Positions 6,254 to 34,050 of a stretch of 56,249 nucleotides of DNA are shown here, one piece after another. The first letter of the stretch is position 1; every line of letters starts with the position of its first letter. The stretch is from positions 9,276 to 65,524 of the forward strand of contig MFRL01000010.1 of the NCBI GenBank assembly GCA_001784565.1. Direction: 5' to 3'. The stretch is from Candidatus Melainabacteria bacterium GWF2_37_15 (lineage in GTDB: Bacteria; Cyanobacteriota; Vampirovibrionia; Gastranaerophilales; UBA9971). Made by a program: the position numbers and the translations under genes. The notes beneath the pieces were generated by a model. That model was given only the letters and a program-made list of their open reading frames with translations, was not told the origin of the DNA and ran no database searches.

Positions 6254-8074
6254 ATGAAAGAGAAAACGGTGATGCTGGAAATTATGCAGGATAAAGTTGT
6301 TTCAAAAATCAAAACCCGCTGGTGCGGAAAAATAACGAAAAATGATATTAACCAGAGAATAAATATAGCGGGATGGGTCGCTACTGTCAGGGACCTTGGC
6401 GGAATTATTTTTGCGGAAATCAGGGACAGGACGGGCGTTATTCAATTAGTAGCTGACCCGGGTAAAAACCCGGAAATCCACAAAATACTTGAACAATTAA
6501 GGGATGAATATGTCATAGCAGCGTCAGGTATTGTTACACAAAGACCTACAGAAACATTCAACCCGAATTTAGGCACAGGCACAATAGAAATTTATCCTGA
6601 TAAGGTTGAAATACTTAACAGGGCAGAAACTCCACCGTTTATGATCGACACAGACCAGGAAATCAGTGAGGATTTACGCTTAAAATACCGTTACCTTGAT
6701 ATTAGAAGACCTAAAATGCTTAATAATCTTATATTAAGGCATAATATTGTAGCTGCAATAAGGAATTTCCTGAATGCTCAGGAATTTATAGATGTGGAAA
6801 CCCCTGAATTAATCAGGACTACACCGGAAGGAGCAAGGGATTACCTTGTCCCAAGTAGGATATACCCGGGCAAATTTTTTGCACTACCGCAATCACCCCA
6901 GATTTTTAAACAGCTTTTAATGGTTGGTGGCATTGAAAGATACTACCAAATAGCAAAATGCTTCCGTGATGAGGCGCAAAGAGCTGATAGACAGCCTGAA
7001 TTCAGCCAGGTTGACCTTGAAATGTCTTTTATCGACTGTGATGACATAATTGCTATTACAGAAGGCATTGTTGTAGAAGCTTTTAAATGTGGAGGAATAG
7101 AGTTAACTCCACCATTTATGCATTTAACATATAAAGAAGCAATGGAAACATACGGTTCTGACAGACCTGATACCAGATTTAACCTTAAGCTTATTGATAT
7201 AAGCGATATTATGGAAAAAAGTTCTTTTACAGCTTTTGCAGACCAGGTTAAGGCCGGAGGCTCAGTGAGAGCGCTGTGCGTTTCGGGAATTTCCGAATAC
7301 AGCAGAAAAGATATGGATGACATAAGAAATCTAGCTGTTTCCTTTGGCGCAAAAGGGTTGGCATGGATAACCTACGGGCTGGACGGCTCCATAAAATCAC
7401 CTATCTTTAAATTTCTCACAGAAGAAGAAGTAGGAATCCTTCAGCAGAGGACAAATGCAAAACCTGGCGATATAGTATTTATTGTGGCAGATAAAAATAA
7501 AGTAGTATTTGATGTTCTTGGCAGGTTGAGGCTGCATTTTGGCGATAAACTGAACCTGATTGATAAATCAAAACACAATCTGCTCTGGGTTGTTGACTTC
7601 CCAATGTTTGAAGTAGACGAGGAAACCAATGGTTTATCCGCTGTTCACCATCCATTCACTTCACCAAATCCTGAAGATGCTGATTTATTAAATACAGACC
7701 CTATTAAATGTAGGGCTCTCGCTTATGATATCGTGTATAACGGTAATGAATTGGGCGGTGGCAGTATAAGAATACATAATCCTGAACTTCAAAGAAAAGT
7801 ATTTGAATTGTTAGGCTTATCAGACGAAGAAATAAAAGAAAAATTTGGCTTTATGGTCAATGCTTTCAGATATGGCGCACCTCCGCATGGTGGACTGGCT
7901 TTAGGTCTTGATAGAGTGGTAGCACTTATAGCCGGGACTAACTCAATAAGAGAAGTTATGGCATTCCCAAAAAGCAGCCAGGCTCGTTGCTTAATGACTG
8001 ATGCGCCGGCAGAAGCATCTGAAGAACAGCTTCAGGAACTGCACTTAAAAATTATTATGCCGCATAAGAAATAG
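6254..8074 (+). CDS. aspS: Aspartyl-tRNA synthetase
   Basis: A 606-residue class II synthetase that charges tRNA-Asp. The N-terminal OB-fold anticodon domain (INIAGWVATVRDLGGIIFAEI), class II motif 2 (CFRDEAQRADRQPEFSQVDLE), the inserted bacterial GAD domain (about residues 300-430) and motif 3 (GLALGLDRVVALIAG) are all in order, at the usual length. The start is uncertain: Met1, Met7 and Met11 are all possible and none has a strong ribosome site. Whether it is discriminating or also makes Asp-tRNA-Asn cannot be decided here. It converges on the flagellin gene with one base between stops. Confidence 0.96.
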   Translation: MKEKTVMLEIMQDKVVSKIKTRWCGKITKNDINQRINIAGWVATVRDLGGIIFAEIRDRTGVIQLVADPGKNPEIHKILEQLRDEYVIAASGIVTQRPTETFNPNLGTGTIEIYPDKVEILNRAETPPFMIDTDQEISEDLRLKYRYLDIRRPKMLNNLILRHNIVAAIRNFLNAQEFIDVETPELIRTTPEGARDYLVPSRIYPGKFFALPQSPQIFKQLLMVGGIERYYQIAKCFRDEAQRADRQPEFSQVDLEMSFIDCDDIIAITEGIVVEAFKCGGIELTPPFMHLTYKEAMETYGSDRPDTRFNLKLIDISDIMEKSSFTAFADQVKAGGSVRALCVSGISEYSRKDMDDIRNLAVSFGAKGLAWITYGLDGSIKSPIFKFLTEEEVGILQQRTNAKPGDIVFIVADKNKVVFDVLGRLRLHFGDKLNLIDKSKHNLLWVVDFPMFEVDEETNGLSAVHHPFTSPNPEDADLLNTDPIKCRALAYDIVYNGNELGGGSIRIHNPELQRKVFELLGLSDEEIKEKFGFMVNAFRYGAPPHGGLALGLDRVVALIAGTNSIREVMAFPKSSQARCLMTDAPAEASEEQLQELHLKIIMPHKK

Positions 8075-27000: not shown

Positions 27001-27421
27001 GAAAATGATTGAATATAAGCGCCTGGCTGATGTATCCAGCCGCAGGGAACTGGAAATATTGAGAGATGAGTGGACAGATAGATTCGGCGGCATACCAGCC
27101 GAAGTGGAACGCCTTATAAGAATTATTAACCTGAGACTTCTGGCTACAGAAATAGGCATAAACCTTGTCAGGGAAACAGGCGATGACATCAGGATATTTT
27201 CTGATTACACTACAGCAGAATTTAATATGTTAAAGCGTACTCTGGATTCTAAGATTTCTTCAAAAATGCGATGGGCCAAAACCCCGTTAAAGTCTGAAAA
27301 TGGCAGCTCGGTAATTATCATAAACAGCCTATACCTGGTTAATGACGAAAAACTAAATTTACTGGAAGATATTTTCACCGCAGCGGGAAATTTTAGTGTA
27401 AAATTAGATGAAACTTGTTAA
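24005..27421 (+). CDS. mfd: Transcription-repair coupling factor
   Basis: A 1138-residue Mfd that releases stalled RNA polymerase and recruits UvrA. The N-terminal UvrB-like module is followed by the RNA-polymerase-interacting CarD-like domain (KEGDFVVHSRHGIGKFIGM, near 460) and the helicase core with Walker A GDVGFGKTEVALRA, DEEHRFGV, LTATPIPRTLNMALSG and QIRGRVGRSERQAYAY. The TRCF C-terminal domain is present. The ATG at 24005 is preferred to the TTG three bases upstream; a TAAAAT at 23993 places the message start close to the ATG and there is no ribosome site. The AGGAG for the next small gene overlaps its stop. Confidence 0.96.
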   Translation: MLDSVITQHYKFQKLLKYLENNRTMHLTGLTGAARSFFVSKLIKNVKRPILLVTPDISTALKYTREIRIFSGKKTSFLPSQEASPYEQVYSDPEITKQQLTILKEQPEIIVTPAKNLLNTYLPKQKSKDYSVKLGLKTKADPFDTAQKLTEIGYKRVTTVIDPGEFSLRGDILDIYPISGEPVRSEFFCDEVESLRVFNIDSQRSIRKISSIIIEPRYKIVINNEEKESLLKKLSQMPSSPHLENFMARFEADTYTEGIEYLAPLLSDTFSNIFNYLQKNTLVFMHESAEIQQRLHIQDEKYIYEYEKNINEGLSPELPYLLHLKPDEVIEKMNKYPALRLDSFIGDEAEIIEEVPSQLPPKFLADMYRACEYITNLKRQDYSVFVDTEYPERVEAALKEMECNCPVIHKGFEEGFLLPEMNLAIITDAELFNKRAKKATLGKRISKKESLDYLVSVNDLKEGDFVVHSRHGIGKFIGMTKQAIDGQEKDYLTIEYSNADKLHMPAEQINLLSRYRGSGTLPKLSKMGGIEWSNIKSRVKKGIADIAEELIKLYARRARVKGFAFEPDSAWQMEMENAFPYTETPDQMQAIIDIKADMESEKVLDRLVCGDVGFGKTEVALRAVFKAILSGKQAAILAPTTILAHQHFLTFQERFKPYPVKIELLSRFRTPKQQKETINKLLTGDCDLVIGTHRLLQKDVQFKNPGLLVIDEEHRFGVSHKEKIKQIKSEIDVLTLTATPIPRTLNMALSGLRDMSLINTPPVNRAPIKTYVGPHNESLIRTAIAHELEREGQVYFLHNRVESIYRVADELKQLVPEARITVGHGQMKERELEKVMYDFSANEYDILVCTTIIESGLDIPNVNTIIIDDADKFGLAQLYQIRGRVGRSERQAYAYCLYRPNKLLTPEAKDRLKAIKDFTTLGSGYQIALRDLEIRGVGNILGPQQHGHMLAVGFYLYCSLLDETIQELKGEKVQKCEPTIVDINITAFIPDEWVGDKEQKMIEYKRLADVSSRRELEILRDEWTDRFGGIPAEVERLIRIINLRLLATEIGINLVRETGDDIRIFSDYTTAEFNMLKRTLDSKISSKMRWAKTPLKSENGSSVIIINSLYLVNDEKLNLLEDIFTAAGNFSVKLDETC

Positions 27422-27431
27422 GGAGATTGCT

Positions 27432-27554
27432 ATGAAAAACCAAAATCAAAAACAAACCCAAAAACCAAAAATTATATCAATTCGTAAATCCTGCTCAGCA
27501 GACGGAACAGGCCTTTCTCACTACATTCTTATGGATAAAAAAGCAAAAAAATAA
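27432..27554 (+). CDS. 40-aa candidate RiPP precursor peptide
   Basis: A 40-residue peptide between mfd and a radical SAM gene. It begins MKNQNQKQTQKPKIISIRK, a polar leader-like stretch, and ends KSCSADGTGLSHYILMDKK followed by AKK, with a single cysteine and a central G-T-G. AGGAG lies six bases before its ATG (overlapping the mfd stop) and its TAA overlaps the ATG of the radical SAM gene as TAATG, so translation is coupled. Short leader-plus-core genes placed next to a SPASM-type radical SAM enzyme are typical of RiPP precursors. The pair may match the CbpA/CbpB type annotated in databases, but that is memory only. No modification can be read from the sequence. Confidence 0.75.
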   Translation: MKNQNQKQTQKPKIISIRKSCSADGTGLSHYILMDKKAKK

Positions 27555-28891
27555 TGTTTAGCACTTTTGATATAAAACACCCCGATTATGTGGCACTTAT
27601 AGAGCCTGATAATGCCTTCTGGGCATTGGTTGAAAAAAACTCAGCAATTAATGATAAGTTTGTTAATGCTTATAAAAACAAAGCTGAAAAATTTTCCGAC
27701 GAAATGCAGAAACTGCGCTTCGGCCTTGCATTGAATGCTGTGTATATAAACCCTACCTCAAGATGCAACCTTAATTGCGTTTATTGTTATATTCCGCAGG
27801 AAATGCGCAAACATGGAGACGATATGTCCAGGGATGCGCTTTTTGAAGCTTTAGAAAAACTGTCAGGCTATTTTAAACAGGTAATGCCTGAAAACAGGCT
27901 CCCCCAGATCATCTTTCACGGTGCTGAACCCCTGCTGGTAAAAGAGGTAATATTCCCTGCCATTGAAAAATTTCAGGACAGATTCCGCTTCGGAGTCCAG
28001 ACAAACGGCGTATTGCTTGACGATGAGGCAATCGAATTTTTAACTGTTAATGGTGTAGGTATTGGCTTATCTTTAGATGCACCAATTAAGCAGATTGCGG
28101 ATAAAACTAGAAAAACCTGGGGTGGAGACAGTGTTTTTGAGAATACTATTAAAACAATACATAAGCTCAAAGGTTATGACGGCTATAACGTAATCACAAC
28201 CGTCACAAAGGAAAACATGCACTGCCTGTGTGACATGATTGATTTTTTTCATGAGCTGGAAATCCCCGCTGTAATGCTTAACATGGTGCGCTGTACCCTG
28301 CCGGGCGCACGAGAAGTGAAGCCTGATGATTATGAGGTTGCGCAGCATTTTATAAAAGCATTGGATAGAACGCATGAACTTTATAAAAAAACAGGCCGGA
28401 AGATTGTTGTTGCTAACTTTGCAAACATCCTTGTAAGCATAATGGCGCCAATGGCTAGGCGTTTAATGTGTGATATCTCGCCATGCGGCGGTGGGCGGGT
28501 ATTTTTCGCGCTTGCTCCTGATGGGGGGATGTTCCCTTGTAGTGAATTCATCGGCTTGCCTGACTTCAAGGGCGGTAACCTTTTCAGGGACGATATTAAC
28601 ACAGTCCTGCAAAGTGAATCTTTTAAGAAAGTTACCGACCGTAAAATAGAAGACATTAAACCCTGCGATAAATGCGCAATCAGGCATTTCTGCGGTGCGC
28701 CGTGCCCGGCAGAAGCCTACGAAATGAACGGCGGGATGAACAAGATTGGAGCATTCTGCGAGTTTTATGAAGAGCAGGTGCGGTATGCTTTTAGGCTTAT
28801 AGCAGATAATATTGTCGAAGATTACCTGTGGAGCGAATGGGACAAGGATACAGTCACACTGTTTGAGGCTTCTGCTTTAAACCGACTATAG
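27554..28891 (+). CDS. Radical SAM/SPASM peptide-modifying enzyme
   Basis: A 445-residue radical SAM enzyme. The 4Fe-4S SAM-binding motif is SRCNLNCVYCY (Cys71, Cys75, Cys78), followed by the barrel landmarks FHGAEPLL (GGEP-like), VQTNGVLL and GLSLDAP. The C-terminal SPASM cluster region has CSEFIGLPDFKGGNLF and CDKCAIRHFCGAPCPAEAY and a last CEFY. SPASM proteins mostly modify peptides (thioether, C-C crosslinks, epimerisation). The upstream 40-aa gene, coupled by TAATG, is its likely substrate. The last 38 bases overlap the convergent glycosyltransferase. No transporter, protease or leader-binding PqqD gene is adjacent. Confidence 0.85.
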   Translation: MFSTFDIKHPDYVALIEPDNAFWALVEKNSAINDKFVNAYKNKAEKFSDEMQKLRFGLALNAVYINPTSRCNLNCVYCYIPQEMRKHGDDMSRDALFEALEKLSGYFKQVMPENRLPQIIFHGAEPLLVKEVIFPAIEKFQDRFRFGVQTNGVLLDDEAIEFLTVNGVGIGLSLDAPIKQIADKTRKTWGGDSVFENTIKTIHKLKGYDGYNVITTVTKENMHCLCDMIDFFHELEIPAVMLNMVRCTLPGAREVKPDDYEVAQHFIKALDRTHELYKKTGRKIVVANFANILVSIMAPMARRLMCDISPCGGGRVFFALAPDGGMFPCSEFIGLPDFKGGNLFRDDINTVLQSESFKKVTDRKIEDIKPCDKCAIRHFCGAPCPAEAYEMNGGMNKIGAFCEFYEEQVRYAFRLIADNIVEDYLWSEWDKDTVTLFEASALNRL

Positions 28892-32886: not shown

Positions 32887-33405
32887 TTACCCTGCAACGG
32901 AAACCGAGTTGTAATTATTTACATTAAACTGCATTTCCCTTGATATGGCTACCTTGCCGGAACGCACAAGCTCACGGATCCCCAGCGGCCTCAACAATTC
33001 TATTAATGACTTTATTTTCGTATCATCACCCATTGCTTCAATAGTGTATGTCTTGACTGATACATCAACTATCTTCGCGTCAAATATTTCCGCAATACGC
33101 AGGATTTCCGAGCGAGCCTCATCTTTTGCATTGACTTTGATAAGGATTAATTCCCTCTCAATACTGTTCTCGCCGGTTATATCCACAACTTTTAGGGTAT
33201 TTACCAGCCGGTTGAGCTGTTTGCATATTTGTTCTATCACTCCATCGTCGCCTGTCGTTACGATAGTAACCCTTGAAAAGGCCTGATCCTGTGTGGGTGC
33301 AACAGTAAGACTCTCTATGTTGAATCCTCTGCCGCTGAACAGTCCGGCTATTCTGCTGAGTACGCCTGCTTCGTTTTGTACAAGAACTGATAATGTATGT
33401 TTCAT
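32887..33405 (-). CDS. ilvN: Acetolactate synthase small (regulatory) subunit
   Basis: A 172-residue regulatory subunit that binds IlvB and mediates valine feedback. The N-terminal ACT domain is HTLSVLVQNEAGVLSRIAG then LFSGRGFNIESLTVAPTQD (residues 3-40), with RELILIKVNAK and the second domain (FDAKIVDVSVKTYTIEAMG). The start ATG overlaps the stop of hepT as TAATG (33403-33407), so the small subunit is translated in continuity with the toxin-antitoxin genes. The symbol ilvH is equally used for this family. Confidence 0.95.
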   Translation of the reverse strand: MKHTLSVLVQNEAGVLSRIAGLFSGRGFNIESLTVAPTQDQAFSRVTIVTTGDDGVIEQICKQLNRLVNTLKVVDITGENSIERELILIKVNAKDEARSEILRIAEIFDAKIVDVSVKTYTIEAMGDDTKIKSLIELLRPLGIRELVRSGKVAISREMQFNVNNYNSVSVAG

Positions 33406-33770
33406 TATTGTTTTTCCTTTTCGTATAATTTTTTAAGTATTTCTTCTAAAGGTTTAACTAAAAGGGCAACATCTTTTTTGCCTGCGCCCCAAAGTGTCGT
33501 TAGATCAACTCTTTCATAACAATGAATAATAATGTTTCTCATTCCGATAATATTTCGCCATGGAATTTCAGGATATTTTTCTTGGATTTCTTTAGGTATT
33601 TTGTTTGCAGCTTCACCCAGGATTTCAAAAAGTCTTTCTATTGCTCGATATCTTAACATATCATCTTTAAAATCGTTAAAAGTTATATTATTTATTACTG
33701 CTTGAATATCCATACAAGCTTGAAGCATATCCTCAAAAGAGTCTATGTAATTTTTTTCAAACATAAACAA
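33405..33770 (-). CDS. hepT: HepT-type HEPN ribonuclease toxin
   Basis: A 121-residue HEPN-domain protein (DUF86). The catalytic R-x4-H with its following tyrosine is GMRNIIIHCYERVDL, Arg78 to His83 and Tyr85; the preceding LGEAANKIPKEIQEKYPEIPWRNI is typical of HepT. HepT is an RNase toxin inactivated by AMPylation of the tyrosine by MntA. It overlaps mntA by 14 bases upstream and ends TAATG into ilvN. Confidence 0.9.
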   Translation of the reverse strand: MFMFEKNYIDSFEDMLQACMDIQAVINNITFNDFKDDMLRYRAIERLFEILGEAANKIPKEIQEKYPEIPWRNIIGMRNIIIHCYERVDLTTLWGAGKKDVALLVKPLEEILKKLYEKEKQ

Positions 33771-34050
33771 CCTCAGATAAAATATGTTTCCCGGTGCGTT
33801 TTTTTAAAGAATTTTTCATAATAATATCAACTTTTTTACCAAAAATTTCAGAAAGCATATATTGTAGCCCACCTAGAGTAAAAAGGCTGGTGTCGGGTTT
33901 GTAATTAACTAAAATGTCAATATCACTATCAGGTTTTTGCTCATTACGAATATATGAGCCAAATAAGCCTATTTCCGTTACATTATAATCTTTTTCAAGA
34001 AGGGGCTTTAATTCTTTTAATTTATCTAAAATTTCATCTTTAGAATTCAT
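33757..34050 (-). CDS. mntA: MntA-type nucleotidyltransferase antitoxin
   Basis: A 97-residue minimal nucleotidyltransferase. The signature GSYIRNEQKPDSDIDILV (G31-S32 and Asp43, Asp45) matches the GS-x10-D-x-D motif of MNT antitoxins, which AMPylate HepT. It starts TAATG at the ilvB stop (34048-34052) and overlaps hepT by 14 bases. The gene pair therefore is embedded, not appended, within the ilv operon. The pair could be functional or a domesticated remnant; both catalytic motifs are intact. Confidence 0.9.
   Translation of the reverse strand: MNSKDEILDKLKELKPLLEKDYNVTEIGLFGSYIRNEQKPDSDIDILVNYKPDTSLFTLGGLQYMLSEIFGKKVDIIMKNSLKKRTGKHILSEVVYV

Follow-up and report, generated by a model that had tools for sequence, protein, structure and literature searches.

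Introduction

SPASM enzymes make PQQ and mycofactocin, and dynobactin carries a His-Tyr cross-link. The closest described relatives of the enzyme considered here include the ranthipeptide/SCIFF-type thioether maturases PapB and CteB, the dynobactin maturase DynA and the anaerobic sulfatase maturase anSMEcpe, whose D277 (in a PCD motif) we take, from structure work on anSMEcpe, to be the catalytic base. CbpA and CbpB form an already named pair of families (NCBIfam TIGR04164 and TIGR04163), and related families were probably defined by Haft and Basu in 2011. The family's model name, 'cobopep', is a hint that a cobalamin connection was known to its curators. The literature that we searched contained no description of CbpA/CbpB function or of its placement in the B12 regulon, and likewise no natural cobaltophore or natural peptide with such a cobalt or B12 role.

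Here, we analyse a cbpAB pair located in a 56,249-nt stretch of DNA from Candidatus Melainabacteria bacterium GWF2_37_15 (hereafter the window), together with its relatives in public genomes. Judged by its profile matches, the window pair is a new, atypical member of the CbpA/CbpB family. The family itself is, on genomic evidence, part of the vitamin B12 regulon; the evidence lies in terminator-linked riboswitches, nearby cobalamin genes and a shared occurrence with such genes across genomes.

Results

A CbpA/CbpB pair directly behind mfd

The window carries, all on the plus strand, mfd followed by cbpA and cbpB. Ten nucleotides separate the mfd stop codon (TAA, 27419-27421) from the cbpA ATG at 27432, and an AGGAG Shine-Dalgarno-like site (27421-27425) starts on the last base of that stop codon. 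The cbpA gene (27432-27554, TAA at 27552-27554) encodes a putative precursor peptide of 40 aa, MKNQNQKQTQKPKIISIRKSCSADGTGLSHYILMDKKAKK, in which an alignment of 60 cores delimits the conserved core IISIRKSCSADGTGLSHYILMDKK at residues 14-37 (27471-27542). Immediately 3' of it, cbpB (27554-28891) encodes a 445-aa radical SAM/SPASM enzyme, whose ATG (27554-27556) has one base in common with the cbpA stop codon (TAATG). The first-pass annotation of this DNA had described a 40-codon gene with its own AGGAG site between mfd and a radical SAM/SPASM gene, its TAA overlapping the enzyme ATG, and each of these elements was seen at 27421-28891.

The peptide scores 58.3 bits against TIGR04164 (CbpA; cut-off 35) over residues 15-38, and the enzyme 709.9 bits against TIGR04163 (CbpB; cut-off 375) over model positions 2-428 of 428. 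Given that both match above cut-off, the peptide gene is more than a chance open reading frame, and the earlier reading as a RiPP-type precursor with a SPASM maturase is supported by the same two profiles. These matches also bear out the name CbpA/CbpB, which the first-pass annotation had suggested; of the model numbers cited with it, TIGR04163 was right, whereas TIGR04165 was off by one and should read TIGR04164. The next-best NCBIfam models for the enzyme (DynA, PapB, sulfatase maturase, HxsB and SCIFF maturase) all score far under their cut-offs. As in radical SAM/SPASM peptide maturases, a CxxxCxxC motif (C71/C75/C78; CNLNCVYC at residues 71-78, 27764-27787) is combined with a seven-cysteine SPASM motif, and both domains are detected by Pfam. 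The extra cysteine clusters remarked on in the first-pass annotation correspond to a complete SPASM set, with C306, C311, C329, C371, C374, C380, C384 and C402 falling in the SPASM domain at 28469-28759.

On the minus strand of the window, at 33405-34050, a couple of small genes that overlap each other resemble a HEPN/MNT (nucleotidyltransferase) toxin-antitoxin pair, and a similar pair is found at L085:8131-8890 in the same genome.

A near-invariant peptide core in many phyla

A scan of public genomes yielded 64 loci, of which 63 encode CbpB, at 53-71% identity. They are distributed over Planctomycetota, Verrucomicrobiota, Lentisphaerota, Thermodesulfobacteriota, Myxococcota, Pseudomonadota, Bacillota, Nitrospirota, Nitrospinota, Omnitrophota, Elusimicrobiota and others, and relatives of cbpAB span more than a dozen bacterial phyla. 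Phylum labels change 25 times along the CbpB tree, the minimum possible being 12, which suggests horizontal spread, with phyla read from bin names and thus an imperfect guide. The first-pass annotation had proposed a survey for conserved pairing, with absence of the short gene beside orthologous enzymes as the adverse outcome; CbpA was found directly upstream of CbpB in 56 of the 58 loci examined, and in the remaining two the available upstream sequence does not exceed 240 nt.

The CbpA peptides are short and built on a single near-invariant core of about 22 residues, with the consensus [VI]IAxRK[SATG]CxAxG[TV]GLSHY[IV]LMDKK. R18, C21, G25, G27, L28, S29 and H30 (window numbering) are invariant in 60 of 60 cores, and the position of Y31 is Tyr in 58 and Phe in two (L025 and L056). 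The codons of the invariant residues show many synonymous variants across loci, which argues that selection acts on the CbpA peptide itself. Gammaproteobacterial precursors can carry tandem cores (L022:1124-1354, L040:2078-2464 and L041, about 7530-7920), with two complete copies each of a unit made of the VIAxRK stretch and CxAxGxGLSHYILMDK. As it is the whole core that is repeated, CbpB probably recognises the core itself.

Cobalamin riboswitches and cobalamin genes accompany cbpAB

Cobamide riboswitches mostly control cobalt transport and cobalamin metabolism (PMC7689651). A cobalamin riboswitch (Rfam) lies 5' of cbpA and on the same strand in 46 of the 51 loci with enough upstream sequence, at a median distance of 138 nt from the CbpA core. 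By a strict rule, 41 of these 46 are followed by a strong hairpin and a T-run, and in three of the remaining five (L026, L053 and L054) a longer hairpin is visible on inspection. Judged by its order of elements, this arrangement corresponds to a switch that ends transcription upon cobalamin binding; a riboswitch followed by an intrinsic terminator implies that B12 would turn cbpAB off and B12 shortage would turn it on.

The terminator hairpins between riboswitch and cbpA are alike even across phyla (AAAGGGTTCCG...CGGAACCCTTTTTTT in L006, L010, L015, L020, L034, L042 and others), as if riboswitch, terminator and cbpAB travelled as one cassette. Among cultured hosts, Sedimenticola hydrogenitrophicus carries a cassette that includes the riboswitch. 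At L036, where cbpAB stands under a cobalamin riboswitch, a TPP riboswitch lies 3' of cbpB (7697-7792). At L065 (5663-7920), about 1.9 kb and a gene on the opposite strand separate the riboswitch from cbpA, perhaps an insertion that uncoupled the two.

Cobalamin genes adjoin cbpAB in at least 13 loci. In L010, the operon cobC-cobU-cobT-cobS-cobQ/C-cbiB-btuR, preceded by a riboswitch of its own, runs divergently beside cbpAB; cobD-cbiB is located just upstream on the same strand in L013, and cbiB-cobD just downstream in L022. Likewise, cobT lies just downstream in L025 and L043, cbiE/T downstream in L067, and cobB near cbpAB, behind a second riboswitch, in L040. Two Pfam tallies of the neighbours showed that cobalamin genes recur and that no transporter, protease, client enzyme or immunity gene does. 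The lack of an adjacent transporter or protease, pointed out earlier for the window, is thus a family-wide trait, neither a transporter nor a peptidase family recurring among the neighbours.

Among 50 CbpB genomes, CobS was found in 43, CbiM in 37, CbiC in 32, CbiD in 29 and at least one of the four in 47; these counts are lower bounds, many bins being incomplete, and they stand without a matched background for genes (CobS and Cbi) that are common in bacteria. The corrin-ring markers CbiC and CbiD are both absent from 17 of the 50 genomes, 12 of which have CobS, which argues that cbpAB has a role beyond de novo synthesis. A strictly cobalt-insertion function, which we had considered, is weakened since a third of CbpB genomes are without ring-synthesis markers.

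In the genome of the window, cobU-cobT-cobS-cobC share one contig, and a second contig holds cbiD, cbiM, cbiN and other cbi genes together with a porin and a weak cobalamin riboswitch (CobS and CbiD were identified by profile searches, the other names read from translations). On the latter contig (C32; L085:3896-6878), a small Cys-rich protein, the 24-bit cobalamin riboswitch and an outer-membrane porin-like gene are located between the cbi genes and cbiMN. A porin-like gene also stands behind a cobalamin riboswitch in genome G012 of the same order (L086:2299-3988), and such riboswitch-linked genes possibly provide an outer-membrane route for cobalt. In the 60 genomes covered from the order, CbiD is confined to three (G000, G011 and G012) and CbpB to two of these (G000 and G012; one-sided Fisher p about 0.002). 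CobS was not detected in G012 at the threshold used, but this genome does contain cobT as well as cobalamin riboswitches, and an AdoCbl riboswitch accompanies its cbpAB. At the level of the phylum, CbpB was found in the window's own genome only, while the other 385 of the 386 genomes sampled are without it; CbpB is therefore accessory rather than a required step.

The window copy departs from its family

The window pair resembles its family in gene order, core and scores above the curated equivalog cut-offs, but differs from it in lying 10 nt behind mfd and in lacking two elements. Rfam searches of the window cbpAB returned 0 cobalamin riboswitch hits, also at permissive thresholds for a hidden or degenerate copy. 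In addition, the start of window CbpB is shifted inward by about 25 residues, and the protein is without the [SRG]xxxN[TS]GxGP segment (or close variants) that precedes the N-terminal region in the tabulated relatives. Outside the N terminus, it departs at only two otherwise near-invariant columns. Measured against these relatives, the window copy has lost the upstream riboswitch together with the beginning of CbpB. It is therefore probably expressed with mfd and through translational coupling, and not under B12 control. The sequence around the window cbpAB yielded no convincing promoter or terminator, so the co-expression with mfd is inferred. Since the riboswitch is missing, the B12 link of this copy rests on its relatives and on the B12 genes of its own genome.

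In the related genome G002, mfd is followed immediately by the same convergent glycosyltransferase, and cbpAB was thus probably inserted at the window site. Phage carriage of cbpAB was sought with no match, and plasmid carriage gave one: a pair on the 278-kb plasmid pHY1 of Methylovirgula sp. HY1 (L102:7795-9374), close to pqqADE. This copy is likewise without a cobalamin riboswitch and without the N-terminal CbpB motif, making it a second case like the window.

Structure and possible chemistry of CbpB

C71, C75 and C78, together with the eight SPASM-domain cysteines listed above, are invariant in 59 sequences. The SPASM cysteines would be enough for two auxiliary Fe-S clusters, so that all cysteines of a predicted three-cluster enzyme are invariant. 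An AlphaFold2 model of window CbpB, built with a 58-sequence alignment, has a pLDDT of 90.4, and its fold matches include anSMEcpe (Z 34.5), CteB (Z 34.2), ChlB (Z 33.9), TigE (Z 27.6) and PqqE; the first four, the closest folds, are all SPASM enzymes that modify peptides. CteB aligns over residues 1-420, including the short N-terminal region of three strands and a helix (residues 1-56, 27554-27721). We also weighed a catalytic or H-donor role for the invariant C247, by analogy with the epimerase EpeE, but make no such claim, as anSMEcpe has a Cys at the aligned place.

CbpB shares the radical SAM domain and full SPASM domain of the ranthipeptide/SCIFF-type maturases, but reaches only 132 bits against the PapB model (cut-off 340) and 115 bits against the SCIFF maturase model (cut-off 425). 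CbpA, for its part, has no acidic residue at fixed spacing after its Cys (no CX3D), and the window peptide has one Cys rather than the six-Cys pattern. The second-best NCBIfam model for CbpB is DynA (NF041298), at 141.3 bits and far under its cut-off of 450; the near-invariant S-H-Y of CbpA recalls dynobactin, while the precursors are otherwise unlike. With anSMEcpe, CbpB has the fold in common and CbpA the C-x-[A/P]-x pattern, but the catalytic Asp277 is not conserved in CbpB, the target Arg is missing from CbpA, and no sulfatase gene adjoins the window pair. In the alignment, the Asp277 position falls in a PCSEF segment that is nearer to CteB. Similar to the PQQ and mycofactocin systems, CbpA/CbpB couples a short, widely conserved peptide to a SPASM enzyme; it differs from them in having no adjacent peptidase or further tailoring enzymes and, in relatives, in its B12-riboswitch control. 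As modelled, CbpB would most likely form a thioether or a C-C/C-N side-chain cross-link, formylglycine being less likely.

Discussion

The reading that we narrowly favour is that cbpAB constitutes a two-gene RiPP-type module of the B12 regulon, which would provide a modified peptide for cobalt or corrinoid handling under B12 shortage. In most relatives, B12 would cause termination and silence cbpAB, whereas shortage would allow readthrough of the riboswitch. CbpB would then recognise the CbpA core and modify it by radical chemistry in the stretch of the invariant Cys and G-x-G-L-S-H-Y, and the modified peptide, probably acting without a dedicated exporter, might help to obtain or handle cobalt or corrinoids when cobamides are scarce. 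In the window, the module would have been placed right behind mfd in a genome with cobalamin-synthesis genes. A more specific version, which we put forward tentatively, sees CbpA as the precursor of a radically modified peptide 'cobaltophore' or corrinoid chaperone, encoded on a transferable riboswitch-terminator-cbpAB cassette that occurs in many phyla and is switched on under B12 shortage. The modification of CbpA, its expression under B12 shortage and its cobalt or corrinoid role are all inferred from sequence.

A core so extremely conserved across many phyla is more usual for cofactors than for antibiotics, and mature CbpA, or a small molecule cut out of it, might instead be a redox or catalytic cofactor like PQQ or mycofactocin. 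It would be produced when B12 is short, in order to aid corrinoid reduction and adenosylation or else to sustain a B12-independent bypass. PqqE among the fold matches and the location of the Methylovirgula pair near pqqADE point in the same direction. However, no dehydrogenase or other client enzyme recurs beside cbpAB, the nearby genes are cobalamin genes and not bypass enzymes, and the Tyr-to-Phe change in two cores makes a Tyr-derived quinone unlikely and disfavours a cresol product as well; overall, we consider a cofactor improbable. The same conservation speaks against maturation of CbpA into a secreted antimicrobial or signalling RiPP, as bacteriocin cores usually diversify. Although SPASM maturases related to CbpB (those of the PapB, DynA and DarE models) make such products, the control by B12 and the lack of a recurring exporter, protease or immunity gene render this reading very unlikely.

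The core pattern C-x-[A/P/T]-x-G also resembles the sulfatase motif C-x-[A/P]-x-R, with Ala or Pro two positions after the Cys in 50 of 60 cores, and among the fold matches anSMEcpe ranks first by Z, level with CteB. Conversion of the CbpA Cys to formylglycine by a sulfatase-maturase-type CbpB is nonetheless the least probable of the readings considered: the motif Arg is Gly in every CbpA, the PCSEF segment takes the place of D277, and CbpB scores 126 bits against the sulfatase-maturase model, whose cut-off is 349. This score and the conserved peptide partner speak against placing the window enzyme in a sulfatase-maturase-only subgroup, which the first-pass annotation had named as the outcome that would undo its proposal. 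As to the window copy, it could be a stranded, decaying transfer that is no longer functional, considering its missing riboswitch and N-terminal segment, the empty site in a relative and the absence of CbpB from the other searched members of its taxonomic family. Yet both frames are intact, the core of CbpA and every cysteine of CbpB have been retained, only two departures outside the N terminus fall at otherwise near-invariant columns, a ribosome binding site is present with the cbpB ATG coupled to the cbpA stop, and the Methylovirgula plasmid copy has the same two deficits. Decay is thus possible but not favoured, and we assign it a low probability.

Taking the B12-regulon module as the preferred reading, an orphan RiPP family gains a testable hypothesis, namely that a conserved modified peptide may serve B12 or cobalt supply. 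The riboswitch found in most relatives would at the same time offer a clean induction handle for detecting the CbpA-derived natural product.
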